64,000 nucleotides of DNA, taken from positions 1 through 64,000 of the IMG/VR virus record IMGVR_UViG_3300042516_001464, one strand, 5' to 3'. Positions 9,385 to 63,172 of the stretch are shown one piece after another. The stretch's first letter is position 1; each line of letters starts with the position of its first letter. A program made the position numbers and the translations under genes. The stretch comes from a virus. The notes under the pieces are model-generated. The model had not been told where the DNA came from. It made no database searches and saw nothing but the letters and a program-made list of their open reading frames with translations.

Positions 9385-9387
9385 CAT

Positions 9388-14663: not shown

Positions 14664-15518
14664 ATGGCAAAGAGAAAATACAATAGGCCTCAAACAATTT
14701 ATGAGGAGGAAATGAGTCCAGAAGAAAAGTATGGAACATCAAGATTTTTTGAATCATTAATTAGGTCTGATCCAGATTCACAATCAAGTTTTGATTATTC
14801 TCAACTTGATGAGAAGTATCCAATTAAATCTATTGGAGGAAGAATGCAACTTGAAGAGCAAAGGCGCAATGAAAATCCTTTTCTTGAAGAAGACATTGCT
14901 TATAGAACAAATATCATAAAGCAACGCGAATCAGAACTTGGGCTTAAAAAGGCTGCAAGAGATTTGGATATGTATGAATCGCAAATCAATCGCGAGGACG
15001 CAATACTTGAGCAAATTCCAGTTGCAAGGCAAAAACTATCCGATCTAGATGTTCGTGACCCTAATTTCATAAATAAGGCATACGATATTCAAGAACAGCA
15101 TCCATTAGCGTTTGAGAGTGATAAATTTCAAAAGTATATCTTTCAACCAATGCTTAATCGTAATTCGCGTTTGATTAGCCGAAAGCAGGATGGAGTAATA
15201 ACGCAAGAAGGGTTATCTAAAGCGATGGCAGAAATTTCAAAATATAACGAACTAATTGACGCTAGGGGCGAGGGGGTTGGTGCTTCAACGGAAGAGGATC
15301 GTTATCTTGGGTATTTGCAAAACCAAATTGACCAATTCTACGCGCAGAGGGGAATGGAGAATCCTAATGCAACTATGCCAATGCAAACACAACAAATGAA
15401 CCGACCAGAATCATTTTCATTTAACACTCCAGAAGAAGCGGAAGAGGCTAAAAGAAATAATATCTTGAAAGTAGGAGATAAAGTAATTATAGGTGGGAAG
15501 ACATACATTACTGAATAA
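14664..15518 (+). CDS. Hypothetical helical internal protein
   Basis: 284 residues, highly charged and helical over residues 45-230. It ends with a small K-V-G-D-K-V-I-I-G-G-K-T-Y beta element that resembles the end of an SH3-like strand pair. Its stop overlaps the giant gene start (TAATG), implying joint translation. Function unknown; probably delivered or assembled with the giant protein. Confidence 0.6.
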   Translation: MAKRKYNRPQTIYEEEMSPEEKYGTSRFFESLIRSDPDSQSSFDYSQLDEKYPIKSIGGRMQLEEQRRNENPFLEEDIAYRTNIIKQRESELGLKKAARDLDMYESQINREDAILEQIPVARQKLSDLDVRDPNFINKAYDIQEQHPLAFESDKFQKYIFQPMLNRNSRLISRKQDGVITQEGLSKAMAEISKYNELIDARGEGVGASTEEDRYLGYLQNQIDQFYAQRGMENPNATMPMQTQQMNRPESFSFNTPEEAEEAKRNNILKVGDKVIIGGKTYITE

Positions 15519-18500
15519 TGCCTTTCCGACTTTTAGATGAAGAGCCTAAAAAACTCGAAACAGAAATTACGCCTCAACAAACGCCAAGGATTGGGAGCTT
15601 TCGTCTTTTGGAAGACGAGCCAGCATTTGCTCAATCATCGCAACCTGCATACAAGTATGATGCTTCTCGTTTTCGCCCCAAGGGATTAACATCTACAAAA
15701 TCAACGCAAGAAGCCCCGGAAGAACAAAGTATCTTCCGTCAAGTAGCAGATATCCCACTTGGCATTGCCCGTGGCGGTGTGACTGGTATCAAGATGATGA
15801 CTGATATTCTTGGTGCTGATAATCCAGTATCAAAGTCATTAGCTGGAGTTGAGGGATACATGGCAGATTTGATGTCCGCTCAAGCAAAGGAAGATCAACA
15901 AGAGATTTCTCGCATTATGAAAGATGCCGAGGACAAGGGATTCGGCGAGCAGGTTAAGGCTGGTATTAAAGCGTTCAGCATTGCTCCAGTTGATATCATG
16001 TCTCAAGCGTTGGGAACAATGGCTCCTGTGCTTGCAACTGGTCTTGCTGGAAGCGCAGCAAAACTTGGAGCATTGGGGATTAGAGCGGTTCAAACTGGTG
16101 TTGGTGCTGGCATGGGTGCTGGCATGATTAAAGGCGAGATTTACAATGAGGTTAAAAACGAACTCATTAATTCTGGAACTCCAGAGGAGCTTGCCGAGAA
16201 AGCTGCTGTTGAAGCGCAATCTTACGGAGGAAAGAACCTAGATCAGATTTTACTTGGAGCAGGACTGGGTGCGGCATCTACATTGGGAGCAGAGCAAATC
16301 CTTACGAGGCTTATAACAAAACAAGGCGTTGCTCCATCTGCTGGTATTATATCTCGCACATTAAAGGGAGGTTTTACAGAAGCTATTCCAGAAGGCGTTC
16401 AAGCTGCACAGGAACAATTGGCAAAGAACGTTGCATTGCAGAGAGAGGGATTTGATGTTGACCCATCCCGTGGTGTTGTTGCTGCCGCTACGATGGAAGC
16501 TATTGCTGGCGCACCATTGGGTGGTCTTGCTGGAGCTGTTGAGCAGCCAGCTAAAGTTAAGACTCTTGAAGAGGAGAAATTTGAGCAGACCAATGAGATT
16601 GCAAGGAATGCTGCTGAAAATGGCGCACCACTTACTGCATCCGCACTTCAAGACAAAGCCGCCGCTAATCTAAATCAAGATGAGCTTGCAAGAAAACTTG
16701 AAGAAGAACTTTCGATTTCTGCCGTTAAACCATCTGTAGCCGCACCTATAGCTATTCCTACAAAAGATGAGTATGTCGCAAGGTATTCGGCTATTGCACA
16801 GGCAGCACCAGAAGAACTTACAAGAGCAGAGCAATCGTTCACAAACGAACTCACTACTGCCGATACAGAAGAGAAACGCATCAATGCACAGAACGCATTA
16901 GACGCAATTAAAGAAGTAAAAGCAGCAGCCGCTGCGCAACCACCAACAACATATGCCACTCAAGAAATCATCCAGCAACAAGGCGTTCGTGAAGAACCTC
17001 AAGACAGAACTCAAGTTGGGGCGACCACAGAAACAGGCGTTAGCGATAGCATACTCGACGCAACGAGAAGCAAAGAAGAAAGGCAAGTAGCCAGAGACAT
17101 CGTAAGCGAACTGCAAGCTGTAGCGAACAATACCGCCACAGGCGAGCAGATTGCCCGTCTATCGATGGAAGGACTCGTAGATGTCCGTAGAGGCCAAGCC
17201 ATCATTAACGAAGACGGTGAGGGCATTCTCGCGCAAGCACAAGCCCCATTGCCAAAGCTCACGCCAGAAGCAAGGGCTGCTGAAGTTGAAACTGCCCCAG
17301 CTACTCCGACTCCATCAGAACTTATCATTGGAGAAAAACCGCAAGTTTCTCCGATAGTAGGCGAGCAAGTTGCAGAGGCTACTCCAGCAGAACCAACTGT
17401 TAAGGAATCCTTGACAGTTCAGCCTGCACAAGCTGCACCCGTAGCTGCACCAGTAGAACAAGTAGTCACGCCACCAGTAGAGGTTGCACCAACCATTGCG
17501 GAGGCCGCTCCAGTTGAGCCGATTGCTCTTGCACCAGAAACTGCTGCTGTTGATAGATACACAGAGCTATCTCGCAATCCAAAAATCGGAACAGCTAAAG
17601 AACGAAAGGCTTTAGAACCAACTGTAGCAACAACAACATTCAAAACAAGTCGTGGCAGCACTTATTATATTTTGCCAGATGGGAAGATACGCCGAGACAA
17701 ATACTCTGGAACAACAAGTTACTCTGACCAGATTGCTTTTGTTTCTCCCGAAAACGCAGAAAAAATAAAAGAGATTCGGAATGAATATGAAGAAGGCAAG
17801 AATACTTCGGTTGAAATTACTCCAGAAGTAATCCGTTTTCGATTTAACGAAAAGATCGCAGAAGTTCCAATTGCTTCACAGTCACCGCAAGAAGGGCTTT
17901 CTCCCTTTGAACTATCTGGTGGAAGATACCCGCATTTAGGTGATCCGGTAGTATCTCCCGCACCAGTCACCGAGCAAGCTGCACCAGCAGAAGCTCCCGC
18001 GCCAGAGGGTGCGCCTGCCCCACAAGTTGAACAAGAAATTGAAGTAGGTGATGAAGCGTCTGTTAATCTCGCTGGAAGAAATGAAACTGTAACCATTGCT
18101 CGTATAGAAGACATCAACGGGGTTCCAACGGCATACTTTGATTATTTTGGATACAAGTCTCGACCATTAGCTGAAATGCAATTGGTTAAAAAATCAAAAC
18201 AAAACATAGCAAAGGCTGAAAGAAAAGCAAAAGAGGCAAAGGCATCTCAAATAGAAATTACTCCACCTAAACCAGAAGACTTTTTTTCAAATGAAGAAAT
18301 AGCAAGTCTTGTATCTGGAAAAGCTCCTGATGGATGGAAGTCCGACACATCTACACGCGATGATTTTTTTCTAACAGATACAAATGGGAAGCGTTGGAGT
18401 TTTAAGCCACAGTATGAAAATGGTGAAATTACATCAATTCTTATGCGTGCTGAAGGGCAAGTTACAGGCGTTACAATTACTAAAGCGCCCACTCCAGCAG

Positions 18501-21500
18501 TATCTGAAGCTCCAACTCAGCCAGAGGGCATCGCAGTAGGCAACCGCATCAAGTTAGGCAAGAGTCCACAGACATACACCATTGAAGAAGTAATTCCGCA
18601 GACAGCAACAGAGAGAGATTTGGGCGAGCAGTATTACTCTGTGAAGAACGAACGCACTGGAGAGGTGCAAGTAGTAGAGGCAATGGACATGAAGAAAGTT
18701 GGTGGGAAGAGAGCGCGGAAGATGGCAATTTCAGATGGAACGATTTCATACAATCAACTCCCAAGCAACATCCAGAAAGAAGCCGATTTTGTTCCTAACA
18801 AAGAATCAACATTGTGGAAGTTGGAGCAAGTATCCGTTGAAGACTTGATGGAGAATAGCCCCGCTGGAATGACTGGAGATATTTCTGAAATTGAAGGCTA
18901 TGATATAGATTCATTAATTAAAAGCATTAGGAAAGATGGAGTCAAGCAACCCATCGTGATGGTTCGCAATGCAGATGGATCAATTGATATTGAAGGTAAT
19001 CATCGAGTATATGCTGCGTATGAAGCTGGGCTTGATACAATCCCGGCTTATGTCCTACAAAAACAAGGCATTCTTAAACAGGCAGTCGAAGAGAAGATTT
19101 CTAAAACAGCATTGATTGATAAAGATGGAAGCATCATTAGCGCACCAGACAAAAATCACGCAATGCTAATGGAGGAGAGCCAGTTTAATTTGGATGCTGG
19201 CGAGTATCCTCCAATGGAGAACTATGGGTTTGTTACAAACTTTGGAAGATTCGTTGGTCAGAAGGAAGCGCAGGAGATCGCTCGTAATTCGCAGCAAGTT
19301 ATAGGAGGGCAGCAAATCAGCGGAGAGCTTGTTACTGCAATCAACGAAGAAGAGAGTGCGAATATTTTGAGGCTCAATGTCCAAGGTGCTTCTGGAAACA
19401 AATTCAATGAAGCAGGGTTCAAGAGATTCCCCGGCATTGCTGTTACGAGAACTAATTCTGAAACACTAACATCGCATCCGCTATACAATGCTGCCAAACG
19501 ATTCAACAATGTAGAGGCTGCTAAAATCATTGTTGATGAATTTGTAGACGATCAAATGGTGTTTGATGTGTTTACCAACATTGATCCAAACAAGCCAGCG
19601 TATATTGTGCCTGTTCTTAAAGGTGAAGCTGATTCAATGAATATGCTTCCAGTCGCATTGGCTGAAAAACTTTCCAATGCAAGCGGAGTCCCCGTGTGGG
19701 GTAACTTGATTCAAGCAACTTCAGAGCAAAGCACAGGCGCTGGGGTGAATGAAAAGACAGAGATATCAAGGCAATTCATGGGTGAAGCTCCTCCAGCCGG
19801 ATCGCAGATAATTATCGTTGATGACTATCTTGCTACTGGCAGAACAATTGCATCGCTTGAAAACATGACTGGAACAGCATCTTCTGTTGCGACAATAGCT
19901 TCTGGAAGATACGGAAATCAATATGGCTTAACTACTCAACGAGCAGAAAAACTCCTTGAGAAGGCAGGCATTACAAGAGAGAGATTTTATGAAATATATG
20001 GACTACAACCAGAACAAGCAATCACAGGAATCGAGGCCCAGGCTTACATCCTCAATGGGGCCGCTGGCGAAGGTGGACTCACAAGTAGATTCCCTGTCGA
20101 AAAAATTTCACCAAGCAATGAAGGAATTAAAAACATTGCGAATGTCCCAGAATCAGTAGTTCTATTTGCTGGTGGTGGGCTTACAGAGCTTGGACTTGTT
20201 GGGATTGTAAGAAATGGATATGTTGTTGAGGCCAATCAACGGATAGCTGAATTCTACGAGGAAGCTCATGGCGTTCCTGTAATTCAAGACTATGTCCAGA
20301 ATGTAAAGTTTTATGGTATTAATGGAGGTCATCTACACGCATCCCCCGTTTGCAAAAACTTCTCTACTGCTAAAAACAAACAACAAGTTACAGAGCAAGA
20401 TAAGATTATTGACAGAGAAGCTGCTGGCGCTGTAGCTCAAGCAATTAGGGACATACAACCAAATACTGTTTCTATTGAAAATGTAACTGGATACAAAGAT
20501 ACAGAATCATACAATTCCATTATCTCTGCGCTTGAGGAGAATGGTTATATTTATGATGCGAATTTTTACAACGCAAATGATTTTGGAGCGCCAACATCTC
20601 GCAAGCGTTTGATTGTTAGAGCAGTTAAAAAGGGTGGAGTTCTTCCAGAAATACGCAAGAAAAAGAAAAGAATGTCTTGGTATGATGCCGTTAAGGACAT
20701 CGTAAATGATTTGCCGGATCACGATATCAATGCCGCGAGGTATCCAGCCAGAATGATGTCCTACTTGGCTGCAAAGGGAATTGATATTTATAATGTTGAT
20801 CAACCGCTTTTGATTAGCGGAACTGATGGCAAAACATTCCGCAATGCAGATCAGCCAGCAATGACATTCTTGGCTACTCCAAGGGCGCTTAATATTATTG
20901 CTCTTCCTGGTGGCATCATTAAGAAGGTCACAGCACGGGCAATGGCAAGAATGACTGGCGTTCCAGATTCATTCCCGCTACCAGCAGATGAGGCTCTTGC
21001 AAAAACTATTATTGGAAACGGAATTCCTCCTGCGCTTACAAGATCGGTAATTGGCGACTTGATTCAGAAGAATGAAAAGCCAGAAGTTGCCGTTCCAAAA
21101 GTAGCAGCTGAAAAGAATCAATATACATTTGATGCAGCTGAAAAAGAAGTTACAAATTTCTTCGGTGAAATGCCGGAAGGAATTGTTATTGTAAACAATA
21201 CAACCGATCCAGACTTGCAATTTAAAGCCGGATACGATGTGAAGACAGGTGAAATTATTATTAACCTTGCATACATCGATAAGAAGGAAAATATCGGAGA
21301 CATTATCTCTCACGAACTTGGGCATTATATCTTTGGTGATCCGCAATTCCGGGCAGACTTCCAAGAGTTTTGGGACATGATGACTCCAGAAGAACAGGCT
21401 GAAGCTGATAGGATTATCAACCAATTTTACAACAACGAGACTAACGAAACCAAAATTGAAGAGAAACAGATTCGCGCATTCATGCAGTTGATCTCTGACT

Positions 21501-24500
21501 CTAAAGCTCAACCACAATGGAAGCAATTGCTAGATAGCATCAAGCGTTGGATGAACAAATACTTTGGAACTAAATTCCAAACAACAGATAGGACTGCATT
21601 GGCTATCCTTTCTACTGCAATGAATCGCTTTGCAAGCGGGGAGCGAATCATCCGTGAGATTGATTCTGGCGTGCTGAAGATGGCAGCAGAGCCAAAGCGT
21701 GAGAAGGTAGCAGGCAAAGAGCGTGGAGAGATCATCACCACTCCAGAAGGGATTATTAAGCAAACGCAAGAGGTGCTACGAAACAAGTTCTTTGATGGAA
21801 CGGAAGTTTCAGATAATGCAACTCAACAAGCGTGGAACTATATAGAGCAGTTGTTGGATATTAAATCCGGCGCGGCCAATGCGCTTGCAGGACAGATTAA
21901 CGATGTAGTTGATCAAGAGACGAATTCTGACTCCAGAATGGGGGCAAGTTTGTTTTCTGTATCTTTGGCTAACTATGCCGCGAAGCTCGCTGCTCAAGGT
22001 GACATGACAATGCTTCCATACATTATCCGCAGGATCAATCGTATGCCAGTTGATAACCTTGCTGGGGGCAGAAGCGAAGCTGGTGAAGCGTTGAGAGCTG
22101 CAAGGGAATATCAAATCGATGGATTCAATACGCTCAAGACAGAAGACAAGGCGAAGGTTGAAAGAACAGCAGCTACATTGTTTGGAACTGATAAGCCAAG
22201 CAAAGATCAAGTAAAGGTTGTTGAAGATGCTATTAAGGCTTCCGAGGATGAAACAATTGGTAATCCAGAGGATGTTGCCGCTGAAATTGAGAAGGTTGAG
22301 AATAGAACTGGCAGAAGGGTTGTTGACAAGGTCGAAGGTAAGATCAAGGAATCAACAGAACCAAAAAAAGAAGAGCTTCTTATTTCATTTGAGAATTTAG
22401 ATGCAGACAAAAAGATCAAAGGCATCACGCTTAAATACAGCCCACAGAAAGTAAATGTAGTCAAAAACATTCAGAACCTCATCATCGGCAAGATGGTTGA
22501 TTATCGAAAAGCACTTGTTAATCAAGGCGCAGGTGGACTTGAATCTACATTCTGGCAGACGATGAGCAGTCTGGAAAACAAGCCCGGACCATTGGGTGAG
22601 ATTGACCAGGCTCAAAACAACGAGCTTGCAAGAATTGTTAAGAACACGCTTATCAAACTTGGGCTTCAAGGTGAGCCTAAGAATACAAAAATGACGGACA
22701 TTGAGAAGGTTGCGTCCATCTTGAACGAGAATAAGTTGAGTGATGAGAAGAGACTTGAAGCTGATCAACGGATTGTTCAAGAGATTGAGCGTAGAAGGCA
22801 GAGTGAACTTGCATCCGGCTCAAGCCCAGAAGCTGTAAATGCAAAATACGATGTCATTCTCGATGCTTGGAATGAAGCGATGAGCAGGCAGTTGAATATG
22901 CCGATTAGCGATAATATGCTTCAGCGTTTGCTGAAATCGGAAATAAAACAACGCAATACTCAGATTAGCGAACTCATCAATGAGAATGACGGAAGAGTTG
23001 TTGAGGAAGTTAAGAACGACATTGTTGATTCTATTATTCGCAGAATCTATGGTGTTTCTAAAGAGTCCGAAACAGGAATTGAGATGGATGAGGATTACAG
23101 CAATCTTCAGTCATATCTCAAGCAGACGATCAACAATATGTATGCAACAGCTATCCAGAAGAAGAATGCTGCATACGCAAAGCGTCAAGCTGAGAGAAGC
23201 CTCAAAAATAATGTTGATGCACAAGCGCAATCAATCATCAATCAACTCTCAACGGAGTTAAGTGATACCCCATCATTCTCGCCGCAAATAGAAAACAAGG
23301 TTAAGGTTATTGTTCAACAAGACTTGAGGCAAAATCCAAACATGGGACGTAAGCAACCATGGACAAGCCAGCTTACAGCAAAGCTCATTGACGCTGGTGT
23401 GGACGAGACACAGGCTCAAACAATCTCTGAACTAACCTGGAGACAGCATGAGATTAAGAAGATGGATCGTGATCTTAAGGAACTCAAGACAGCAGCTGAA
23501 AAAGGATCGCTTGCCGTTATCATTGATCGAATCAAAACAACGCCATTAGAGAAGCAGCAAGAGCCTAACTGGATGCAAGGCGTGATTCGTGAATACTTGG
23601 TTGAAGCCGGACTATCTGATAAAGCTGCTGAAACTGCCGCGAAACTATACGAAAGCGTAATCTCTGAAAAGTTCGCAGAAGCGAAACAAAAAGCATTTGA
23701 AACAACACTTAATAAATCCGCTCCGTGGCAAAACTATCTTTCAAGAAATAGCCGACTTGGCAAGGACGCATTGAAGAGAATTCAAGACGCGATTAGAACT
23801 GGAGTTCTTGATCCAACGCAAAATGTCGAAAGCATTATTGCAAGAGAGAATGGGTGGTCTGGTTTTACTAAAGAACAATTCCAACGCATTGTTCAATTGG
23901 ACAATGTTATATCCAGTCCAGATACAGACCAAGTTACAAAAGCGGAGGCAATGGACGAGCTTAACAAGATCATCGTTAAGGCGAAGATTCCAGTAAGATT
24001 CAAGGATGCCATCGGCGCATATTATGTTGGTCAGGCGCTTATGGGTATTCCAACGCTAACCGTTAACATTGCGTCACCTATTGGGTTCTCTGTCAGAAAT
24101 CTTATCACAGATATCGGACGCTATGCGTTTACTGAACCATCGAGAATTCCAATGGCATTTGAAACATTCTTGGATAGTATGAAGTCTTGGTATAACCAAA
24201 GCTCATACGCATTCAGAAACCAAATCTACATGAATGATGTGGTTGAGTATTTGAATGGTCAGAATGTTCTTCGTGAATTGTTTGACAAAGGAAAAGCTCA
24301 ATGGGCTAAAGGTGAGTATGCGAACGGCATGGCAAATATGCTTGTTGGCATGACGCAAATTACTGGTCGAGTTCTGTCGGCTTTGGATCAAGGCGCTATC
24401 TCTATGTTGGAGAATCAAAACATTACGAGATATGCGATGGAGGCAATGAAGCAAAGAAACATTCCGCAATCAAAGCGGAAGGAGATTGCCAACATGATCT

Positions 24501-26011
24501 TTGATACACGCAGAAGGACATATGCAGAAAATGTTGCTGCTGGCATGGAGAAAGATCGCGCTGGTGTGCTGGCTGATTTGGCAGTCAGAAGCGAGATTAT
24601 CAATGCGCTTTCTCCAGAAGGAATTGATTTCAAGGATGTATTGGATTCTGCTATTAACGACTCATTGCAATCTGTTGGTAGAAACAAGACAATTAATGTT
24701 GATGGAATTGTTAAGGAGAATGAAAGGCTATCTGATGCGGGTGTGCTGTCTTATCTTCCAATTGAATTCCTCCAAAAGATAGCATCCGGCGCGGCAAGTA
24801 GTGGGCCATTGATGCAGGTATTCTCCAAGATGGTTTATGGATTTGCTCTTGTCCCAGCCAGAGTATTCCATACAACAGCCTGGTATTCTCCATATGGATT
24901 CATTCGACTTGGTATTGATGCTTATAAAAAGAATAAGGGCGAAGATTCGCCATATGCGATGAGTTTGCAAACAGACCTGCAATACAAGCAAAGGCTTACA
25001 GACGCTATCGCCGGATCAATTGTCATGCTTGGACTCGCCGCTCTTGCAAGTGGATCAGCTGATGATGACGAAGAGAAGAAGTTTAAGATTGTTATTACAG
25101 GTAATGGTCCAAGTTATTCAGCAGACAGGCAGTTCTTTGATGCGTGGCATAAAAAGTATAAGCCATACAGCATTAATATTGTTATGGGCGATACCGTTAT
25201 TCCAATCAACATTGGACGAGGCGGCGAGGCATTGTTCTTCCCAATTATGCTTGCTGGCGCATTGGACGATTGGGGAATTAAAAAGAAACTTAATCTTACC
25301 AAAAAAGAACCAGAAGACTTGAACCTCGCTGTGGAAGTGTTGGGGTCATCATTCTTTGCCTTGGCTCAAAGAGGGCCATATGCTGCGTTTACCAAACCAT
25401 TGTTTGATGCATCTAAAGAAGGCAAGATTACAGAAGAACTTGTTAGCCAAGCCGGGTTCTTTGGTAAAACATTTGTTCCGATATTAGGTTCATCTCTTTC
25501 AAGGAATATTTCTGACTTTATTAACGATCCAATTGATAGGTCTTCATTGGAGGGAGCTATCTACGCTAATACACCTATTGTTGGTCCGTGGATGGGCGCT
25601 AAAGCTCTTAATGCATTGGGGCAACCAATTAGGGCGGACGATTGGGGAGATAGGCTATTTAAGCTCGGAGTGCCAGTTGTATTCTCATTCCCTAAAAATA
25701 CTCCAGAGAATGAACTCAATGAGCTTATCCTTCAGAAAGGAAGTGGACCATCAATCCCAACAAGAGCCAATGCGCAGAAACGATTTGGTGATGTTCTGAC
25801 AGATAAAGAGTTTGAAACATATGTGCGTGAATATGGACGAGTTGTGTCTGACAAGATGTTCAAGAACAGGAAACAACTTGAAAAGATGTCTGTCAAAGAT
25901 TACGATGATGAACTTCAAAGATATGTCACGGGATACTCAATCGATGGAATTAAAATTACTGGGGCATCAGATATGGCAGTTCGTGCTGTAAGAAGGATGC
26001 GAGGCGAATGA
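15518..26011 (+). CDS. Giant polyvalent protein: ParB-like, PRTase, C5 methylase and Zn-peptidase domains
   Basis: 3497 residues. The N-terminus repeats F-R-L-L-x-x-E-P twice, then has an Ala/Gly-rich hydrophobic part (about 165-320) and a long Ala/Pro/Glu linker. Domains seen: ParB/sulfiredoxin-like (1100-1185, with E-G-N-H-R); phosphoribosyltransferase (1300-1490, PRPP loop I-I-I-V-D-D-Y-L-A-T-G-R-T); cytosine-C5 methylase (1540-1850, F-A-G-G-G, S-P-V-C-K-N-F-S with Cys1612, E-N-V, R-K-R-L); zinc peptidase (HELGH at 1932-1936). A long helical part follows, then a C-terminal domain with hydrophobic patches (about 2820-3190). This matches the known class of phage polyvalent proteins injected with DNA. 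The methylase motif has Val and Lys where PCQ is usual. Confidence 0.85.
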   Translation: MPFRLLDEEPKKLETEITPQQTPRIGSFRLLEDEPAFAQSSQPAYKYDASRFRPKGLTSTKSTQEAPEEQSIFRQVADIPLGIARGGVTGIKMMTDILGADNPVSKSLAGVEGYMADLMSAQAKEDQQEISRIMKDAEDKGFGEQVKAGIKAFSIAPVDIMSQALGTMAPVLATGLAGSAAKLGALGIRAVQTGVGAGMGAGMIKGEIYNEVKNELINSGTPEELAEKAAVEAQSYGGKNLDQILLGAGLGAASTLGAEQILTRLITKQGVAPSAGIISRTLKGGFTEAIPEGVQAAQEQLAKNVALQREGFDVDPSRGVVAAATMEAIAGAPLGGLAGAVEQPAKVKTLEEEKFEQTNEIARNAAENGAPLTASALQDKAAANLNQDELARKLEEELSISAVKPSVAAPIAIPTKDEYVARYSAIAQAAPEELTRAEQSFTNELTTADTEEKRINAQNALDAIKEVKAAAAAQPPTTYATQEIIQQQGVREEPQDRTQVGATTETGVSDSILDATRSKEERQVARDIVSELQAVANNTATGEQIARLSMEGLVDVRRGQAIINEDGEGILAQAQAPLPKLTPEARAAEVETAPATPTPSELIIGEKPQVSPIVGEQVAEATPAEPTVKESLTVQPAQAAPVAAPVEQVVTPPVEVAPTIAEAAPVEPIALAPETAAVDRYTELSRNPKIGTAKERKALEPTVATTTFKTSRGSTYYILPDGKIRRDKYSGTTSYSDQIAFVSPENAEKIKEIRNEYEEGKNTSVEITPEVIRFRFNEKIAEVPIASQSPQEGLSPFELSGGRYPHLGDPVVSPAPVTEQAAPAEAPAPEGAPAPQVEQEIEVGDEASVNLAGRNETVTIARIEDINGVPTAYFDYFGYKSRPLAEMQLVKKSKQNIAKAERKAKEAKASQIEITPPKPEDFFSNEEIASLVSGKAPDGWKSDTSTRDDFFLTDTNGKRWSFKPQYENGEITSILMRAEGQVTGVTITKAPTPAVSEAPTQPEGIAVGNRIKLGKSPQTYTIEEVIPQTATERDLGEQYYSVKNERTGEVQVVEAMDMKKVGGKRARKMAISDGTISYNQLPSNIQKEADFVPNKESTLWKLEQVSVEDLMENSPAGMTGDISEIEGYDIDSLIKSIRKDGVKQPIVMVRNADGSIDIEGNHRVYAAYEAGLDTIPAYVLQKQGILKQAVEEKISKTALIDKDGSIISAPDKNHAMLMEESQFNLDAGEYPPMENYGFVTNFGRFVGQKEAQEIARNSQQVIGGQQISGELVTAINEEESANILRLNVQGASGNKFNEAGFKRFPGIAVTRTNSETLTSHPLYNAAKRFNNVEAAKIIVDEFVDDQMVFDVFTNIDPNKPAYIVPVLKGEADSMNMLPVALAEKLSNASGVPVWGNLIQATSEQSTGAGVNEKTEISRQFMGEAPPAGSQIIIVDDYLATGRTIASLENMTGTASSVATIASGRYGNQYGLTTQRAEKLLEKAGITRERFYEIYGLQPEQAITGIEAQAYILNGAAGEGGLTSRFPVEKISPSNEGIKNIANVPESVVLFAGGGLTELGLVGIVRNGYVVEANQRIAEFYEEAHGVPVIQDYVQNVKFYGINGGHLHASPVCKNFSTAKNKQQVTEQDKIIDREAAGAVAQAIRDIQPNTVSIENVTGYKDTESYNSIISALEENGYIYDANFYNANDFGAPTSRKRLIVRAVKKGGVLPEIRKKKKRMSWYDAVKDIVNDLPDHDINAARYPARMMSYLAAKGIDIYNVDQPLLISGTDGKTFRNADQPAMTFLATPRALNIIALPGGIIKKVTARAMARMTGVPDSFPLPADEALAKTIIGNGIPPALTRSVIGDLIQKNEKPEVAVPKVAAEKNQYTFDAAEKEVTNFFGEMPEGIVIVNNTTDPDLQFKAGYDVKTGEIIINLAYIDKKENIGDIISHELGHYIFGDPQFRADFQEFWDMMTPEEQAEADRIINQFYNNETNETKIEEKQIRAFMQLISDSKAQPQWKQLLDSIKRWMNKYFGTKFQTTDRTALAILSTAMNRFASGERIIREIDSGVLKMAAEPKREKVAGKERGEIITTPEGIIKQTQEVLRNKFFDGTEVSDNATQQAWNYIEQLLDIKSGAANALAGQINDVVDQETNSDSRMGASLFSVSLANYAAKLAAQGDMTMLPYIIRRINRMPVDNLAGGRSEAGEALRAAREYQIDGFNTLKTEDKAKVERTAATLFGTDKPSKDQVKVVEDAIKASEDETIGNPEDVAAEIEKVENRTGRRVVDKVEGKIKESTEPKKEELLISFENLDADKKIKGITLKYSPQKVNVVKNIQNLIIGKMVDYRKALVNQGAGGLESTFWQTMSSLENKPGPLGEIDQAQNNELARIVKNTLIKLGLQGEPKNTKMTDIEKVASILNENKLSDEKRLEADQRIVQEIERRRQSELASGSSPEAVNAKYDVILDAWNEAMSRQLNMPISDNMLQRLLKSEIKQRNTQISELINENDGRVVEEVKNDIVDSIIRRIYGVSKESETGIEMDEDYSNLQSYLKQTINNMYATAIQKKNAAYAKRQAERSLKNNVDAQAQSIINQLSTELSDTPSFSPQIENKVKVIVQQDLRQNPNMGRKQPWTSQLTAKLIDAGVDETQAQTISELTWRQHEIKKMDRDLKELKTAAEKGSLAVIIDRIKTTPLEKQQEPNWMQGVIREYLVEAGLSDKAAETAAKLYESVISEKFAEAKQKAFETTLNKSAPWQNYLSRNSRLGKDALKRIQDAIRTGVLDPTQNVESIIARENGWSGFTKEQFQRIVQLDNVISSPDTDQVTKAEAMDELNKIIVKAKIPVRFKDAIGAYYVGQALMGIPTLTVNIASPIGFSVRNLITDIGRYAFTEPSRIPMAFETFLDSMKSWYNQSSYAFRNQIYMNDVVEYLNGQNVLRELFDKGKAQWAKGEYANGMANMLVGMTQITGRVLSALDQGAISMLENQNITRYAMEAMKQRNIPQSKRKEIANMIFDTRRRTYAENVAAGMEKDRAGVLADLAVRSEIINALSPEGIDFKDVLDSAINDSLQSVGRNKTINVDGIVKENERLSDAGVLSYLPIEFLQKIASGAASSGPLMQVFSKMVYGFALVPARVFHTTAWYSPYGFIRLGIDAYKKNKGEDSPYAMSLQTDLQYKQRLTDAIAGSIVMLGLAALASGSADDDEEKKFKIVITGNGPSYSADRQFFDAWHKKYKPYSINIVMGDTVIPINIGRGGEALFFPIMLAGALDDWGIKKKLNLTKKEPEDLNLAVEVLGSSFFALAQRGPYAAFTKPLFDASKEGKITEELVSQAGFFGKTFVPILGSSLSRNISDFINDPIDRSSLEGAIYANTPIVGPWMGAKALNALGQPIRADDWGDRLFKLGVPVVFSFPKNTPENELNELILQKGSGPSIPTRANAQKRFGDVLTDKEFETYVREYGRVVSDKMFKNRKQLEKMSVKDYDDELQRYVTGYSIDGIKITGASDMAVRAVRRMRGE

Positions 26012-38881: not shown

Positions 38882-40573
38882 ATGGCTCAACAACCAATAC
38901 ATGGAGACGGAAATTTAAATCTGCTATATAAGATTGCAGATAACACCTATGATATTTCGCAAGGTGGTGGTGGCACTGGTGGTAATGGGGCGACTGGTGC
39001 AACTGGAGCTACAGGATTAACTGGAGCTACAGGAAGCACAGGTGCAACAGGCGTTGCTGGTGGGCAAGGTTCCACAGGTGCTACCGGAATCGCTGGAGGT
39101 CAAGGTTCGACGGGGGCAACCGGAACTGCTGGAGTTGATGGTGCTACAGGAGCTACAGGGGTAGGGGCAAGCGGTTCTACTGGAGCAACAGGTTTGCAAG
39201 GCGCAACTGGATTGACTGGCGCAGGTGGAGCATCTGGATATTGGGGTTCCTTCTGGTCAAACCAAGACCAAAGTGCAGCTAACACAACTACGGCCTATCC
39301 AGTTACCTTTAACAATACAGACCCAGACTCAATTGGGGTTAGCGTTGTTTCAAATAGTCAGATTACTTTTGCAAATGCTGGCGTGTATAACATTCAATTT
39401 TCCGCGCAAGCAGACAGGGTTTCCGGTTCTGGCTCGGACAGCATTGATATTTGGTTCAGGAAAAATGGAACAGATATTCCAGAAAGCAATGGTGTTATAA
39501 CAGTTGCAGGTGGTGCAGCGGCGGCAAAAACAATTGCGTCTTGGAATTATATGCTGAAGCTGTCAGCGGCAGATTATGTAGAATTGGTGTGGAGAACATC
39601 AGATACTAATTTACAATTCATTCACGAGGCTTCCGCAACAAGCCCAACAAGACCAGCAATTCCAAGTGTAATAGTTACTGCTCAACAAGTAATGAACACG
39701 CAACTTGGGCCTCAAGGGGCAACTGGTGCTACTGGAGTTCCACTTTCTCCTCAAATTGACAGATTCATTGGTTCTGACACATGGACAAAACCAGTAGGCG
39801 CAAAGCAAGTTTTGTTTGAATGCGTTGCAGGTGGTGGCGGTGGTGGTGCAGGATTGAAAGTTGCCGCTGGAACTGCGGTTTCTGGTGGCGGCGGCGGCGG
39901 TAGCGGCGGATACTCACGCGCACTAATAAATGCCGCAGACTTGCCTGATACTGATGTATATACAGTTACAGTTGGTTCTGGCGGGTCTGGAGGTGTCGCT
40001 GGAGGAACTGCGGCTACCCCCGGCGGAATTTCAAGGGTGTCTGGTTCAACCATTGGAATATTTATCAACGCAGCAGTAGGCTCGGCTGGTGGCGTTGGCG
40101 TATCAGGAGCAAATAGCGCGGTAGGAATTGCTGGCGCACCTGCTGGTAATTCTGGTGGTGCTGGAAACATAACTGGATCAGGCGGAAATGGAACGGGGCA
40201 AAATTATGCTCCATCATCTGGCGGTGCTGGAGGCGGATGCTCAACGACAACGCCATTTCCCGGAGGGGTTGGTGGGGCGGCATGGTTTATTAGTGGCGGC
40301 GCGGGAAGTGCTGGAACGGCATCAACACTTGCTAATGGAGGAAACGGAGGAACTATAGCAACGCGGGCAATACCATCACTTGTTATGAATGGCGGTGGTG
40401 GTGGCGGCGGTGGCGCGACAACTGCAAGCGGATTTAGCGGTGGTAACGGAGGAAGCGGAACTGGCTACGGAACTAGCGGAGGAGGCGGGGGATCATGTTC
40501 TGCGGCATCTGGAACTGGTGGTAATGGAGGTAATGGCGCACCCGGTATTGTAATGATCACAACTTATTTTTAA
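38882..40573 (+). CDS. Collagen-like and glycine-rich tail fibre, second copy
   Basis: 563 residues. An N-terminal anchor like that of 37677-38615 (G-D-x-x-x-N-L-L-x-K-I-A) is followed by G-A-T type triplets (about 35-115), a C1q/TNF-like beta domain (about 120-270), and a glycine-rich C-terminal domain. The last part is paralogous to 9388-11088, for example T-W-T-K-P, A-K-Q-V, and the final I-T-T-Y-F. Two such fibres with different middles suggest a modular adhesin set. Confidence 0.8.
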
Positions 40574-40685
40574 TTATGGAAATTGACGACTGGCTTATTG
40601 TTAACTCTGAAACGCATGAAATTGAAATGGGAATCCGTTGGGATGGGAAAACCAATTGGCCTTTGCCAGAAGGAACATATGCTGT
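40568..40685 (+). repeat. 118-base exact repeat, copy 2
   Basis: Identical to 11083-11200; the remainder of the flanking genes is only similar. Confidence 0.95.
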
Positions 40686-40746
40686 TAAACGGAGCGAAGC
40701 AGACTATTCAATCATAAAAGAAAAACCACAAAACGATGGATACTAA
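40576..40746 (+). CDS. Small fibre-associated protein, copy 2
   Basis: 56 residues; the first 36 equal those of 11091-11258, the tail differs. Follows a collagen-like fibre in both places and overlaps the downstream membrane-protein gene by 11 bases. No family recognised. Confidence 0.7.
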   Translation: MEIDDWLIVNSETHEIEMGIRWDGKTNWPLPEGTYAVKRSEADYSIIKEKPQNDGY

Positions 40747-47433: not shown

Positions 47434-49724
47434 AACCATGCACAATAATAATACCATCGTCCCTTACATCAGTCTTTGTTCCGGCTATGAAGGCATCGGA
47501 ATTGGACTCCACCGCTGTATCCGAAATCTTCGCTGCATCTCTTACTGCGAGAGGGAATCATTCGCCATCGCAAACTTGGTTGCGAAAATGGAAAAAGGAT
47601 TACTGGACTCAGCTCCTGTTTTCACAGATGTCACAAATTTCCCATGGGGAGACTTCACTCCATACATGGCTAAAGGAATTTTGTCCTTTGGATGGCCGTG
47701 TCAACCAGTCTCAAGCGCAGGAAAGCGAAAAGCAACAGAAGATGAGCGATGGTTATTCGACATCATCGCAGATGGAATTTCAATTATGCAACCCGGAATG
47801 CTCTTCGCAGAAAATGTCGAAGGACTCTTATCAGCAAAAATGCCAGACGGATCAAGCGTCTTCGGACACTGCATCGAGAGATTGGAGAAGCTACATTATA
47901 AAGTTGAGGCAGGAATATTCAGTGCGAGCGAAACAGGCGCTCCGCACCAACGCAAAAGAATCTTTATCCTGGCCTACCGCGAGGAGCAGGGATTGGAAGG
48001 ACTCAGGGAACTTGAGTCAAACTTCCTATGGAATGACATTGGGCAGGATGGCGCAGCAGAATGCGAATTGGCCTACGCCAGCGGTGATGGATACAACGGG
48101 AGGCAGCTACAAGACGGAATGGGTAGATGGAAGGGCGGTCAGCTACCACAATCACAAAGAGGAGAATCCGGTAGCTTACGGGGCCAAACTTTCGGATGCA
48201 GTGGCGAATTGGCCTACAGCGAGAACATCGGATTGCAAGAATCCATCAATACAGAGAATGAAAGTTGGATCGGATGGTGGAAACAAAATCCAGCTGCGGG
48301 AAGCAGTAGCGAAGGAGGAGATGAGTTGTTCCAATACGGAGGAATTAGTGTGGTTAACCCCAACGACAACACAAATACAGAGGCGGGATATGCAGAAGCG
48401 GATAGACTATCGGGAGAGCATAGGCCGGAAGTATGTGCCGGGTTCATTGGAGGAACAGATGCAGCATCACTCAAACGAACCAGTGAATTGGCCGACACCT
48501 ACAACAGCGGAAGCTGGGAAGATATCAAACCAGCCGAATTACGGACAGATATGCTTGAGCAATCATCCGGCAATTGTTGGAACTCCCAATCGTCCGAAGG
48601 GGATCAAAGATGGCCTTCTCGCCCAGGACAAACACAATACGCATGGGAACCACCCAGAACTATTGGAAAAATGGAAAATGGTTCCTGGTTGGGGCGACAA
48701 ATATCAAGTCAGCAATCACGGAAGAATGCAGTCCAAGGCGAGTGGGGATTGGAGAGAGATGACCTTAACAATCAAGGACACGGGATATCTGAATGCGAGC
48801 TTGAGGCACGAAGGAAAACAGAAAAAAGTAACGATCCACATTCTGGTTGCGATGCTGTTTCTTGGGGAAAGGCCAAGTGGATTGGTGATAAATCACATAG
48901 ACGGCAACAAGTTGAACAACTGCATTTGGAATCTGGAATATGTGACAGCAGCAGAGAACAACCGCCATGCTCAAATGATGGGTTTGAATTGCACGAAAGG
49001 AGAATCCAATCCAATGGCGAAGCTCAATACAGACCAGGTAGAGGAGATACTACAATCAACGGAATCGCAGTTAGTAATAGCGAAGCGGATGAATGTATGC
49101 CAACAAACCATATCGTTGATTCGTTCTGGAAAAAGGTGGAAAGGTTTGAAGCAAGAGTCATGGCCGACACCAACGATGCAGGACGGCAAGCAGGGAGGGA
49201 TAACTCCATCTCAGATGGTGGAAGGAGCTGGTCACACGGGACTGCTTCACATTGCAGCAATAAAGCAAGAGCAATGGAGGACACCATCTGTAGCGGAAGC
49301 AAAGAATCAAAATACATCAACACAAGTTTATCTTCAGAACCAAGTCGGAGCTACTCCGAAACAATGGGCGACTCCTCAAGCGAGCGACCACGTGGAGGGA
49401 CGCAGGACGGACTTGGACAGCAATCAGAAATGTTTGGGGAGAGACATGAAGAAGTGGGCGACTCCGAGTGCGTTCGACTTCAAGGATGGGGAGAGCAGGG
49501 AACAATGGGAGAAGAGAGCTGCATTCCAAGCGGAGAAGGGCGTGAGTCTTCAACTTCCGCTCAAGAGCCAATCGATACAGGAGGCGGGAACGATGAGTCC
49601 CAGTTCAGCAAAATTGAATGCGAGATGGGTCGAAACTCTCATGTCGCTTCCAATGGGATGGGTATGCCCGTCATGTCCAGCCTCTGTGATTCAGAACTGG
49701 AAGAAATTTATGAGTGGATGGTGA
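47430..49724 (+). CDS. WPTP-repeat protein overlapping the methyltransferase, with embedded HNH endonuclease
   Basis: 764 residues in the frame -1 to the methyltransferase. Nine repeats start at W181, W214, W261, W308, W354, W578, W616, W646 and W676; the pattern is W-P-T-P-x-x-x-D-x-K or close to it. Between the fifth and sixth repeat (about 412-576) lies an HNH endonuclease: a NUMOD4-like start (V-P-G-W, Y-Q-V-S-N-H-G-R), HNH with V-I-N-H-I-D-G-N and N-L-E-Y-V-T, and an HTH tail. The C-terminus L-N-A-R-W-V-E-T-L-M-S-L-P-M-G-W looks like a conserved ending. I recall similar (W/L)PTP-rich proteins close to methylases in other phages, but could not check. Function unknown. Confidence 0.6.
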   Translation: MKPCTIIIPSSLTSVFVPAMKASELDSTAVSEIFAASLTARGNHSPSQTWLRKWKKDYWTQLLFSQMSQISHGETSLHTWLKEFCPLDGRVNQSQAQESEKQQKMSDGYSTSSQMEFQLCNPECSSQKMSKDSYQQKCQTDQASSDTASRDWRSYIIKLRQEYSVRAKQALRTNAKESLSWPTARSRDWKDSGNLSQTSYGMTLGRMAQQNANWPTPAVMDTTGGSYKTEWVDGRAVSYHNHKEENPVAYGAKLSDAVANWPTARTSDCKNPSIQRMKVGSDGGNKIQLREAVAKEEMSCSNTEELVWLTPTTTQIQRRDMQKRIDYRESIGRKYVPGSLEEQMQHHSNEPVNWPTPTTAEAGKISNQPNYGQICLSNHPAIVGTPNRPKGIKDGLLAQDKHNTHGNHPELLEKWKMVPGWGDKYQVSNHGRMQSKASGDWREMTLTIKDTGYLNASLRHEGKQKKVTIHILVAMLFLGERPSGLVINHIDGNKLNNCIWNLEYVTAAENNRHAQMMGLNCTKGESNPMAKLNTDQVEEILQSTESQLVIAKRMNVCQQTISLIRSGKRWKGLKQESWPTPTMQDGKQGGITPSQMVEGAGHTGLLHIAAIKQEQWRTPSVAEAKNQNTSTQVYLQNQVGATPKQWATPQASDHVEGRRTDLDSNQKCLGRDMKKWATPSAFDFKDGESREQWEKRAAFQAEKGVSLQLPLKSQSIQEAGTMSPSSAKLNARWVETLMSLPMGWVCPSCPASVIQNWKKFMSGW

Positions 49725-49825
49725 AGTGTGAGAATCGCACGGATGAATTACGCTTGCTGGGTAATGGCGTGGTTCCGGCAACAGCAACGAAAGCATTCAT
49801 AACTTTATTCAACAAACTCAAATGA
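47438..49825 (+). CDS. Cytosine-C5 DNA methyltransferase with very long spacer
   Basis: 795 residues. Motif I S-L-C-S-G-Y-E-G-I-G (12-21), motif IV F-G-W-P-C-Q-P-V-S with catalytic Cys88, motif VI E-N-V-E-G (125-129), motif VIII H-Q-R-K-R-I-F-I-L (170-178), motif X L-L-G-N-G-V-V-P-A-T (773-782). The gap between VIII and X is about 595 residues, far more than the usual target-recognition region, and has short repeats such as E-L-A-Y, E-L-A-D-T, M-A-D-T and V-G-D-S, produced by the same DNA that encodes WPTP in the other frame. The start is eight bases inside the overlapping gene. Likely protects phage DNA from restriction. Confidence 0.8.
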   Translation: MHNNNTIVPYISLCSGYEGIGIGLHRCIRNLRCISYCERESFAIANLVAKMEKGLLDSAPVFTDVTNFPWGDFTPYMAKGILSFGWPCQPVSSAGKRKATEDERWLFDIIADGISIMQPGMLFAENVEGLLSAKMPDGSSVFGHCIERLEKLHYKVEAGIFSASETGAPHQRKRIFILAYREEQGLEGLRELESNFLWNDIGQDGAAECELAYASGDGYNGRQLQDGMGRWKGGQLPQSQRGESGSLRGQTFGCSGELAYSENIGLQESINTENESWIGWWKQNPAAGSSSEGGDELFQYGGISVVNPNDNTNTEAGYAEADRLSGEHRPEVCAGFIGGTDAASLKRTSELADTYNSGSWEDIKPAELRTDMLEQSSGNCWNSQSSEGDQRWPSRPGQTQYAWEPPRTIGKMENGSWLGRQISSQQSRKNAVQGEWGLERDDLNNQGHGISECELEARRKTEKSNDPHSGCDAVSWGKAKWIGDKSHRRQQVEQLHLESGICDSSREQPPCSNDGFELHERRIQSNGEAQYRPGRGDTTINGIAVSNSEADECMPTNHIVDSFWKKVERFEARVMADTNDAGRQAGRDNSISDGGRSWSHGTASHCSNKARAMEDTICSGSKESKYINTSLSSEPSRSYSETMGDSSSERPRGGTQDGLGQQSEMFGERHEEVGDSECVRLQGWGEQGTMGEESCIPSGEGRESSTSAQEPIDTGGGNDESQFSKIECEMGRNSHVASNGMGMPVMSSLCDSELEEIYEWMVKCENRTDELRLLGNGVVPATATKAFITLFNKLK
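48663..49157 (+). mobile_element. HNH endonuclease module inserted in the dual-frame gene
   Basis: About 495 bases encoding NUMOD4-like, HNH and HTH segments, in frame with the WPTP gene and flanked by WPTP repeats on both sides. The methyltransferase frame stays open across it. No target duplication was seen. Boundaries are approximate. Confidence 0.6.
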
Positions 49826-59324: not shown

Positions 59325-59999
59325 TTAGATTACAAAACCGGATGTGTCTTTTTTCGCTTTGCCTTTAGCCTTTAATGCGACAACAACGCCCCTAGGGTCC
59401 AAGAATCGCAAATCAGACTCGTCTCCATTAAAGCAGACTTTGCCTTTCCATGTTTTAGGGATGTCAGAAAATACCGCCGCAATGTTCCCTCCTCTTTCCA
59501 TGATCTCATCACAGGCAGCCTCGTTATCCTCTTTTCTGGAAAATGTGAGAGAGTAATTTTGGGGAAGCTTCCCATCTAAAAAATCAAGCATCCTTTGCTT
59601 GTTAGGTGTATAGTCATAAAATGGGACATCTGGAAAGGATTCCATTAATCCCATTTTGTGCCATGGAATATCGCTAGTCCCATTTAAACGCACGCAAGGC
59701 AACATCCCGGCTTTTTCCGCCTTCTTTACTAAAGCTTGAATATCCTTTTTGAGATCATTTAAAAATGCATTTTTATCCTTAAAAAATGCTAGCGTCTTGC
59801 GGAGACGAGCAGATTTGACATTATCAAACGCCCCCCGCCCTGCGGAGAAAAGACAAGCGGCGCGACATCCGGCGCTTGCGTGCGGACAAACATTCCGTCC
59901 GCTAATGTCTGCAGGAGTCAAATAAAGGATGCCGGTCATGTAGCCTTTAGCCTGGCCTTTTTTAGTTTTTGCGTTTGTATCAATAGATAGTAATTTCAT
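59325..59999 (-). CDS. GP88-family phage protein
   Basis: 224 residues from the ATG at 59999; an upstream in-frame ATG at 60029 would add ten residues, but family members usually begin M-K-L-L. P-A-D-I-S-G-R-N-V-C-P-H-A-S-A-G-C-R-A-A-C matches the phage gene-product-88 family signature, with clustered Cys suggesting a metal site. Function of the family is not known. Last gene before the noncoding block. Confidence 0.75.
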   Translation of the reverse strand: MKLLSIDTNAKTKKGQAKGYMTGILYLTPADISGRNVCPHASAGCRAACLFSAGRGAFDNVKSARLRKTLAFFKDKNAFLNDLKKDIQALVKKAEKAGMLPCVRLNGTSDIPWHKMGLMESFPDVPFYDYTPNKQRMLDFLDGKLPQNYSLTFSRKEDNEAACDEIMERGGNIAAVFSDIPKTWKGKVCFNGDESDLRFLDPRGVVVALKAKGKAKKDTSGFVI

Positions 60000-60029
60000 G
60001 GGATTTGATTTGAATTGATTTGATGCCAT

Positions 60030-60605: not shown

Positions 60606-60772
60606 GCAAGCGGCACAGCGCAGCGGCGCAGCACAGCGGAGCGGAGCGGATGACATAAGAGCGGAGGGACGGCGCAGCGGCACAGCACAGCACAGCGGAG
60701 GGTGGCACAGCGTAGGGGTGGCACAGCGTAGAGCGGAGGGCGGCAGGGGTGACGGGGCGGGGGGGTACGCAG
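60606..60772 (+). repeat. GC-rich, T-poor repeat block
   Basis: Degenerate repeats built from CAGCGG, GCACAG and GGTGGCACAGCGTAG, the last twice in tandem. The plus strand has almost no T and is much richer in G and C than the window average. Frames through it give only low-complexity peptides. Confidence 0.75.
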
Positions 60773-60834: not shown

Positions 60835-60908
60835 TACCCTCGGCTGGGATCGAACCAGCAACCATCGAATTAGAAGTACGATACTCTATCCTATTGAGCT
60901 ACGAGGGT
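60835..60908 (-). tRNA. tRNA-Arg (anticodon UCU)
   Basis: 74 bases on the minus strand. Acceptor stem ACCCTCG with CGAGGGT (seven pairs), D-arm with AGCTCAATAGGAT, anticodon loop CTTCTAA (anticodon TCT) with a stem containing one T-T mismatch, and T-arm with GGTTCGATCC. A discriminator A follows; CCA is not encoded. It decodes AGA codons, which are common in these AT-rich genes. Confidence 0.9.
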
Positions 60909-61083: not shown

Positions 61084-61395
61084 TTAAGCGTTGTTGCTAC
61101 TGGTATCTGAATCGGTGGATTCTTCTTTGCGGACTATATAGGACATATCGATTCCTTGGGTTTGCATGAATTGAAGGATTATTTCTTGGTCCCTTTCGAG
61201 TTCTTCTACCTTTTCGATGAGTTCCTCTGTGTCTTCTATGAGTTCTGCTCTTTCTTCTTTGAGTTGTTCTATGATTGATCCGAGGAATCTTACGCCTTCT
61301 GTCATGGCCTGGGCTATCTTTACTGGATCACCCTTGCCTTTAGATAGGGAGGCGATTGCTTCGTCTATGGCTACGAGTTGTGGGAATGGGGTCAT
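61084..61395 (-). CDS. Coiled-coil hypothetical protein
   Basis: 103 residues: residues 45-85 form a strongly charged heptad coil, then an acidic Ser/Asp tail. The first codons (M-T-P-F) are repeated 276 bases upstream, at the start of 61411-61671. No family recognised. Confidence 0.6.
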   Translation of the reverse strand: MTPFPQLVAIDEAIASLSKGKGDPVKIAQAMTEGVRFLGSIIEQLKEERAELIEDTEELIEKVEELERDQEIILQFMQTQGIDMSYIVRKEESTDSDTSSNNA

Positions 61396-61673
61396 ATGAG
61401 AGATAGTTTATCACACTTGTCCAGTACACACCCTCTGGAATATGTGTGAGGAAAATTGATTTTTATTGAGTGTTTCCCTACACAGCATTTCAGAAACCCC
61501 TATAATGTGTGGGGAGCGTGGGGAGCGTGGAGAACCATACCACATATTCAGCACTCCTCTCTCCTTTAGGTGTGCGACAAATTGGTTTTTAAATGAAATC
61601 TCCCTACACAGGCGTTTCAAAATCCCTATAATGTGTGTGACACTTTTGTGTATCGCGTGGAATGGGGTCATAT
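61382..61673 (-). mobile_element. Possible insertion with 15-base direct repeats and two internal 126-base-spaced copies
   Basis: GGAATGGGGTCATAT occurs at 61383-61397 and 61659-61673. Between them two related blocks of about 75 bases (about 61441-61515 and 61568-61642) share CCCTACACAG, a TTTCA block and CCCTATAATGTGTG, spaced by 126 bases. The flanking repeat overlaps a start codon, so the element appears to have entered at the ATG of 61084-61395 and copied it. Confidence 0.5.
61411..61671 (-). CDS. Frame inside the repeated element (86 aa)
   Basis: 86 residues with an internal duplication (H-I-I-G-x-x-x-x-L-C-R-E and K-N-Q-F twice), caused by the 126-base repeat. It starts with the duplicated M-T-P-F and overlaps the upstream stop by ATGA, so it may be translated, but the composition looks like repeat DNA read through. 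Confidence 0.3.
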   Translation of the reverse strand: MTPFHAIHKSVTHIIGILKRLCREISFKNQFVAHLKERGVLNMWYGSPRSPRSPHIIGVSEMLCRETLNKNQFSSHIFQRVCTGQV

Positions 61674-61847
61674 TGGGATAGCAGTGATGCGGGACTTTAG
61701 TTCTTCTCCGTTGTATTTAAAGGTTACTACATCGTATCCTTGCTCGTCTTCCTCGATGTTTATGAACTCTACCTCTCGCATGGGGATGAACTCACCATTA
61801 GTTAGGTGAAGGCAGGGTTCACTTAACATTTGTGGTTTAGCCTTCAT
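61668..61847 (-). CDS. Hypothetical small protein (59 aa)
   Basis: 59 residues, beta-rich and acidic, with ATG at 61847 overlapping the preceding stop (ATGA). No family recognised. Confidence 0.5.
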   Translation of the reverse strand: MKAKPQMLSEPCLHLTNGEFIPMREVEFINIEEDEQGYDVVTFKYNGEELKSRITAIPI

Positions 61848-62038
61848 TTGGCAGCTATTACCTTTAGGATAAAAACGCATACCAAAAGTAGAAATATAAG
61901 TGCAAAATTAACCAATAGAGGCGATAACACCAACCACCAACTCCAGTCAATCACGCTCGTTAGCTTCAGCGTAATGAATATCAAGGTAAGATAATTACAG
62001 AAGCTGCCTCCAATATATATTGTTTTTTTGTCGCTCAT
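61844..62038 (-). CDS. Two-helix membrane protein
   Basis: 64 residues with two transmembrane segments (about 13-30 and 37-60) and D-W-S-W-W between. Similar small proteins occur in many phages and resemble Fragile-X-F-type transmembrane proteins; role unknown. Confidence 0.6.
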   Translation of the reverse strand: MSDKKTIYIGGSFCNYLTLIFITLKLTSVIDWSWWLVLSPLLVNFALIFLLLVCVFILKVIAAK

Positions 62039-62130: not shown

Positions 62131-62352
62131 TTACTTTGCGTTATTTATAATTTTCTTTAGTCCATCCTTTAGATTAAACAGAGTGCATTGATCTCCGTCT
62201 GCCAAATGTGCGTTTTCCTTTAGGCAGGCTTTAACCAACTTGATTAACTCATTCCTTTGATGTTCCATCATTCGTGAAACATCAGCCAACCTAAAACTCC
62301 ATTGTCCTTTGCTATCAAGAATAGCCTGGTCGGTTTCTGGCGTTTTAATCAT
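62131..62352 (-). CDS. Hypothetical helical protein
   Basis: 73 residues, helical with a short coiled coil. ATGA overlap with the preceding gene. No family recognised. Confidence 0.5.
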   Translation of the reverse strand: MIKTPETDQAILDSKGQWSFRLADVSRMMEHQRNELIKLVKACLKENAHLADGDQCTLFNLKDGLKKIINNAK

Positions 62353-62591
62353 TTCATGGATTTACTTCCCCGGCATTTCCATTTTTTCCTCGACAGGCGG
62401 TTTGGGCTATTCGGATCATTCTTCCAGTCACCCTTGATCTTAGCGGATCGAGCGCAATACGCATCACCACGCTTTGAGCCTGGATCAACATTTGCTCCTT
62501 TTTGTCCGTAAGAAACCTTACGAGTTCTTCCTGTCTGTGGATTTTTTACTATTTTAACTGACGCTTTGCCAGTTGCAGGTTTTGATTTCAT
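62349..62591 (-). CDS. DUF6321-like basic protein
   Basis: 80 residues, very Lys/Arg/Ser-rich, with C-A-R-S and N-D-P-N-S-P-N-R-L-S-R-K-K-W-K-C, a signature I associate with DUF6321 phage proteins. Likely nucleic-acid or virion binding. Overlaps the next gene by ATGA. Confidence 0.6.
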   Translation of the reverse strand: MKSKPATGKASVKIVKNPQTGRTRKVSYGQKGANVDPGSKRGDAYCARSAKIKGDWKNDPNSPNRLSRKKWKCRGSKSMK

Positions 62592-62743
62592 TTCTTCTTT
62601 GCAGTTTTTGCTGATTGTTTGAATGCTTGTGCTGTAGGAGCGCCCTTGCTACCCGGCTTCCTCATCTTCTCGCCACTTCCGGCAGCGATGCGATTGCGTT
62701 TAGCGTGAATTGCGGCATAAAGCCCTTGTGGTTTCTTATTCAT
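62588..62743 (-). CDS. Small basic conserved protein (51 aa)
   Basis: 51 residues, Lys-rich: G-L-Y-A-A-I-H-A-K-R, G-S-G-E-K-M-R-K-P-G-S-K-G-A-P-T, a pattern frequent in phage genomes next to DUF6321-like genes. Starts at the ATG at 62743; overlaps both neighbours. Confidence 0.6.
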   Translation of the reverse strand: MNKKPQGLYAAIHAKRNRIAAGSGEKMRKPGSKGAPTAQAFKQSAKTAKKK

Positions 62744-62930
62744 ATTTTTTGTGTGGTTTGTGAAAGTAGCCTTGAACTAAATCGCCGTTTCTACGATATA
62801 TGTAGCCATTAAAAAGTTCTTTGATTGCTCGGAAAAGGTCTTTGGTTAGGCATTTTTTATGAATGCGAACAGGCGTGTCTTCTACTTTTGCTGGAGATTT
62901 AAGCTCCATATCGCATACAGCGCATTTCAT
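62736..62930 (-). CDS. Small protein with C-x2-C and H-x3-C
   Basis: 64 residues. C-A-V-C near the N-terminus and H-K-K-C later may bind zinc. Coupled to the next gene by ATGA. Confidence 0.5.
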   Translation of the reverse strand: MKCAVCDMELKSPAKVEDTPVRIHKKCLTKDLFRAIKELFNGYIYRRNGDLVQGYFHKPHKKYE

Positions 62931-63172
62931 TTCTTCACCTTCCCTGCTGTTGTAACATAAAACCTTATGTTTTGTCCATCTGTTAAATCTTTTTTCAAGA
63001 AAACATGAGCGGATTCAACTATTGTCCCCTCATCATTTGACCTATTTATGACATTCTTAAGAGCAGTGTTGATGTCTTCCACTATCATTTCAAAAAGCGC
63101 AGAGTTCTCATTATGCTTTTCTGTATTGATCCATTCAGTTAAAACTGCATGACACTTAACATTTTGCTCCAT
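62927..63172 (-). CDS. Hypothetical protein (81 aa)
   Basis: 81 residues from the ATG at 63172; the frame continues upstream over the next gene, so the internal start was taken. Helical N-terminus and a beta-rich end. No family recognised. Confidence 0.55.
   Translation of the reverse strand: MEQNVKCHAVLTEWINTEKHNENSALFEMIVEDINTALKNVINRSNDEGTIVESAHVFLKKDLTDGQNIRFYVTTAGKVKK

Follow-up and report, generated by a model that had tools for sequence, protein, structure and literature searches.

The start region of a small phage gene is present here in two identical copies separated by a short segment of DNA. How did this segment come to lie there, and is it a mobile element? The locus was studied in a window of 64,000 bases, which forms part of a metagenomic virus record of 67,811 bases. 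A first-pass annotation of the window had likened the segment to a miniature mobile element, inserted at a start codon with a target-like duplication.

Direct repeats at a stop/start overlap

The genes around the segment all lie on the minus strand and form an operon of small genes. The 15 bp sequence GGAATGGGGTCATAT occurs exactly twice in the 67,811-base record, at 61383–61397 and 61659–61673; the start-to-start distance is 276 bp and 15 of 15 positions are identical. The inserted segment occupies the 261 bp between the two copies (61398–61658). The direct repeats around some 260 bases that the first-pass annotation reported are thus real, although its start for the repeat, 61382, is off by one base. 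Nine exact repeats of at least 15 bases lying no more than 400 bp apart were located in the window, the other eight being in tandem or low-complexity arrays. When windows with matched dinucleotides were simulated, only 2 of 60 held any such repeat.

On the minus strand the downstream copy (61383–61397) reads ATATGACCCCATTCC and holds the start codon of a 103-residue gene (61084–61395), whose first bases are ATGACC. The upstream copy (61659–61673, also minus) carries the identical ATGACC, in line with the copied start that the first-pass annotation described. Here it begins an 86-residue open frame (61411–61671) and, in an ATGA overlap, contains the TGA stop of the upstream small ORF, which encodes 53 residues from an inner ATG (61668–61829, minus) or 70 residues (61668–61880). 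The sequence CTATC is found 5′ of both copies on the minus strand (CTATC-CCA-ATATGACCCCATTCC and CTATC-TCTC-ATATGACCCCATTCC), a five-base match with a chance probability of about 1.6%. With CTATC at almost the same distance from each copy, the flanking duplication may be longer than 15 bp, at around 24 bp.

Removal of 276 bp (one repeat and the insert) restores a four-base ATGA stop/start overlap. Further four-base overlaps, ATGA or ATGG, are observed in the same operon at 62349–62352, 62588–62591 and 62927–62930. A tandem duplication of the start of the 103-residue gene was considered and rejected, because nothing in the insert resembles the body of that gene. Farther downstream, short GC-rich repeats of the GGCACAGCG type lie at 60611–60733, between a GP88-like gene (59325–60029) and tRNA-Arg (60835–60908).

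The start site in related phages

The 103-residue protein is conserved, with relatives at 87% (L003), 64% (L004/L005), 61% (L007) and 61% (L016) identity. The insert was found in none of these four lineages; the outcome that the first-pass annotation said would refute its reading, all relatives carrying the element with the same spacing, was therefore not observed. The ATG of the homologous gene in L004/L005, L007 and L016, which is this same start codon, lies in an ATGA overlap whose upstream ORF is different from, and unrelated to, the one in the window. In L003 only around 21 bp separate a conserved hairpin from the start codon; the body of the 53/70-residue ORF and the insert are both missing. 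The hairpin, GTTAGGTGAAGGCAGGGTTCACTTAAC (27 bp, 61801–61827 in the window), also marks the edge at which similarity to L003 stops on the upstream side. It was examined as an integron attC site and rejected on reading the sequence; its GTTRRRY/RYYYAAC boxes are misordered and it is too short for such a site.

Because the start site is uninterrupted in relatives and excision of one repeat with the insert restores the stop/start overlap, insertion with duplication of the start region is supported, as the first-pass annotation had proposed. The uninterrupted junction that it proposed to look for in relatives was found for the start codon, in three lineages, but not with the same ORF upstream. A strict empty site, with the 53/70-residue ORF joined directly to the 103-residue gene, was not found among the relatives. 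We infer such a site, since the 53/70-residue ORF has no relative that we could find beyond a 27-residue fragment at the L003 hairpin.

The interval between the 64-residue gene (61844–62038, minus strand) and the 103-residue gene is different in every relative lineage. It contains only the hairpin in L003, one or two ORFs in L016 and L004, and a longer stretch in L007; in the window it contains the small ORF and the insert. As the interval differs in each relative it is, judging from this comparison, a variable site with turnover of small cassettes. Cellular genomes, searched for the 103-residue family, yielded no prophage relative.

Two other differences from L003 are noted nearby. An additional ORF of up to 244 residues is present in L003 (positions 1516–2250 of L003), next to the region homologous to 62580–62600 of the window; by eye it looks like a GIY-YIG-type endonuclease, with no Pfam match at 1e-3. 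Conversely, L003 lacks some 330 bp that the window has near 62810–63160. Both would count as more evidence of cassette turnover.

Content of the insert

The insert is largely made up of two related blocks in the same orientation, at 61414–61511 (around 98 bp) and 61541–61637 (around 97 bp) on the plus strand. Their alignment spans 100 columns at 74% identity and includes indels, with five gap positions (BLAST E 1e-10 in a search of the whole window), and their 37 bp cores lie 126 bp apart and are 81% identical. The relatedness and the 126-base spacing had been recognised in the first-pass annotation, but at around 100 bp the blocks are longer than the 75 bases it gave them. On reading, the spacer (61512–61540), together with the base preceding it, holds a doubled GGGGAGCGTG. 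No further copies of the blocks were found in the 67.8 kb record. The insert itself is apparently an old head-to-tail duplication of a sequence of about 100 bp, and apparently non-coding.

The two duplications appear to differ in age. Two copies that had diverged by 26% would match at 15 of 15 positions with a probability of around 1% (0.74 raised to the power 15). As the flanking copies are identical and the blocks have diverged by 26%, the insertion is probably younger than the inner duplication, and the segment probably arrived already dimeric. This order of events carries the caveat that the flanking copies contain start and stop codons that may be under selection; such constraint could preserve their likeness without recent duplication.

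We considered whether the 86-residue frame (61411–61671, minus strand), which the insertion created, could be a real gene cassette with an internal protein repeat in an ATGA-coupled operon. The frame stays open through 86 codons, its start sits in the ATGA overlap and, 126 being a multiple of three, the two blocks share a reading frame. Its codon log-odds are however −0.14 per codon, when most neighbouring small ORFs score between +0.07 and +0.47 (one conserved, membrane-like neighbouring ORF is also negative, at −0.15). Over 28 codons, changes between the blocks number 12, 8 and 8 at codon positions 1, 2 and 3; there is no excess at third positions, and the frequency of silent changes is close to the chance expectation. 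The blocks therefore appear to have diverged as DNA and not as protein, and these changes, indels included, fit an absence of coding constraint. No homologue was found in Pfam, PHROGs, NCBIfam, PDB or the phage and plasmid collections. A gene cassette is thus quite improbable. The earlier remark that the inserted frame and the old gene both keep a start is correct for the two ATGs, but the inserted frame has no coding signal.

An RNA role was similarly examined. Folding of the insert is unremarkable (z of −0.66 and −1.67 for the two strands), and strong RNA structure was rejected on these values. A known RNA family was also rejected, Rfam giving no match over the insert; its sole credible match nearby is the tRNA-Arg.

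Each block does contain a putative promoter-like match, TACACA-16-TATAAT, on the plus strand and antisense to the operon (61479–61506 in the first block and 61605–61632 in the second). Both agree with the consensus at 10 of 12 positions and lie in the most conserved part of the repeat. With the terminator-like hairpin at 61801–61827 lying downstream, the insert could be a regulatory cassette in which two promoter-like blocks face the hairpin and would direct an antisense RNA over the small ORF. The layout appears similar to the promoter–stem-loop (PeSL) cassettes of T4-like phages (Arbiol et al. 2010 and Comeau et al. 2014, as cited in PMC4503421). Like these, the insert is short and apparently non-coding, lies in a variable region with small phage genes on either side and has promoter-like sequence near a hairpin. 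A PeSL, however, unites an early promoter with a stem-loop terminator; here the matches are inside the insert, and the hairpin is outside it and is present in L003, which has no insert. PeSLs are described in PMC4503421 as dense in regions of shuffling, whereas the block here is confined to this insert. The core motifs exceed chance only in its two blocks and do not recur elsewhere in the window, in contrast to the recurrence of PeSLs at many intergenic sites. Moreover, the region holds five promoter-like matches, close to the chance mean of 3.9. Given the predicted promoter-like sequence in each block a regulatory role is conceivable, although we give little credence to a regulatory cassette of this kind.

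Origin of the insert

A miniature non-autonomous transposable element, arriving by transposition with a 15 bp target site duplication, would account for the exact flanking direct repeats and for the absence of the insert in relatives. The insert does resemble a MITE in being short and apparently non-coding (its open 86-residue frame shows no coding signal) and in having flanks that look like a target site duplication. This duplication is exact over 15 bp, which is longer than usual; target duplications of 15 bp are unusually long for bacterial elements, and this speaks against transposition. MITEs also have terminal inverted repeats, and here the 30 bp ends of the insert match no better than chance (64% of shuffles equal the best match, p = 0.64).

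Dispersed copies, a further feature of MITEs, were sought widely. The insert is single copy in the 67.8 kb record, and no second copy was found in related phages, IMG/VR, GTDB, or the phage and plasmid searches; the IMG/VR and GTDB scans were pattern scans that required exact short matches, so diverged copies could escape them. No parent element or relative of the insert was found in these searches. Three sets of candidates were rejected. The tblastn match H21 (E 0.9) is unrelated GC-rich DNA sharing only short chance words, plasmid and phage blastn matches (E 0.8–10, none covering more than 14% of the query) are no better than chance, and five viral loci obtained with a relaxed pattern have nothing in common beyond the pattern itself.

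The first-pass suggestion of a miniature mobile element, to be sought in other phages and bacteria, consequently finds no backing. A transposable element is not established, because inverted repeats or further copies would be expected and neither was found. Transposition is a possible source of the insert, though in our view an unlikely one. We regard as most improbable a short phage-borne mobile element of a novel kind that lacks inverted repeats, targets stop/start overlaps, duplicates around 15–24 bp and spares both genes. Were the same segment found dispersed at other ATGA junctions, the finding would matter much more.

The explanation we consider reasonably likely is a lineage-specific insertion, in which a preformed and apparently non-coding segment of around 261 bp entered the ATGA overlap and the junction was duplicated, most probably by illegitimate recombination or template switching. 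The dimeric segment would have formed first, as an old head-to-tail duplication, and would then have inserted at the stop/start overlap between the small ORF and the 103-residue gene. Duplication of the junction sequence (15 bp, possibly around 24 bp) at insertion would leave the upstream ORF with its stop and the downstream gene with its start. On its own, a duplication of this size that lacks inverted repeats points to no particular mechanism. No further assumptions are needed if the insertion arose by illegitimate recombination, or by template switching during replication, at a site where small cassettes turn over often.

Acquisition of foreign DNA by illegitimate recombination has been proposed for the ORFan region of cyanophage S-PM2 (PMC4503421). 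There, as here, lineage-specific segments are gained or lost between conserved genes, and the present interval differs in every relative; the piece inserted here differs in being apparently non-coding and in having a clear flanking duplication. The insert thus looks like ordinary phage genome turnover in a variable region, with a neat junction. If accidental, the insertion gives a snapshot of non-coding sequence entering a tightly packed phage operon with both neighbours unharmed, since the duplicated junction keeps the stop and the start. The insertion would probably uncouple the small ORF and the 103-residue gene in translation; it perhaps also adds candidate promoter-like or binding sequences.

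Elsewhere in the window, two copies of a 239 bp stretch, 86% identical and separated by 29.5 kb (11023–11261 and 40508–40746), lie near arrays of collagen-like GXY repeats (8344–10250 and 38959–39246). The copies probably belong to two fibre-like genes that have an end module in common. The window also contains a very large ORF of 3497 residues (15518–26011) and a 795-residue ORF (47438–49825), whose N-terminal part matches the C-5 cytosine-specific DNA methylases (PF00145) and whose long C-terminal part lies outside this match.
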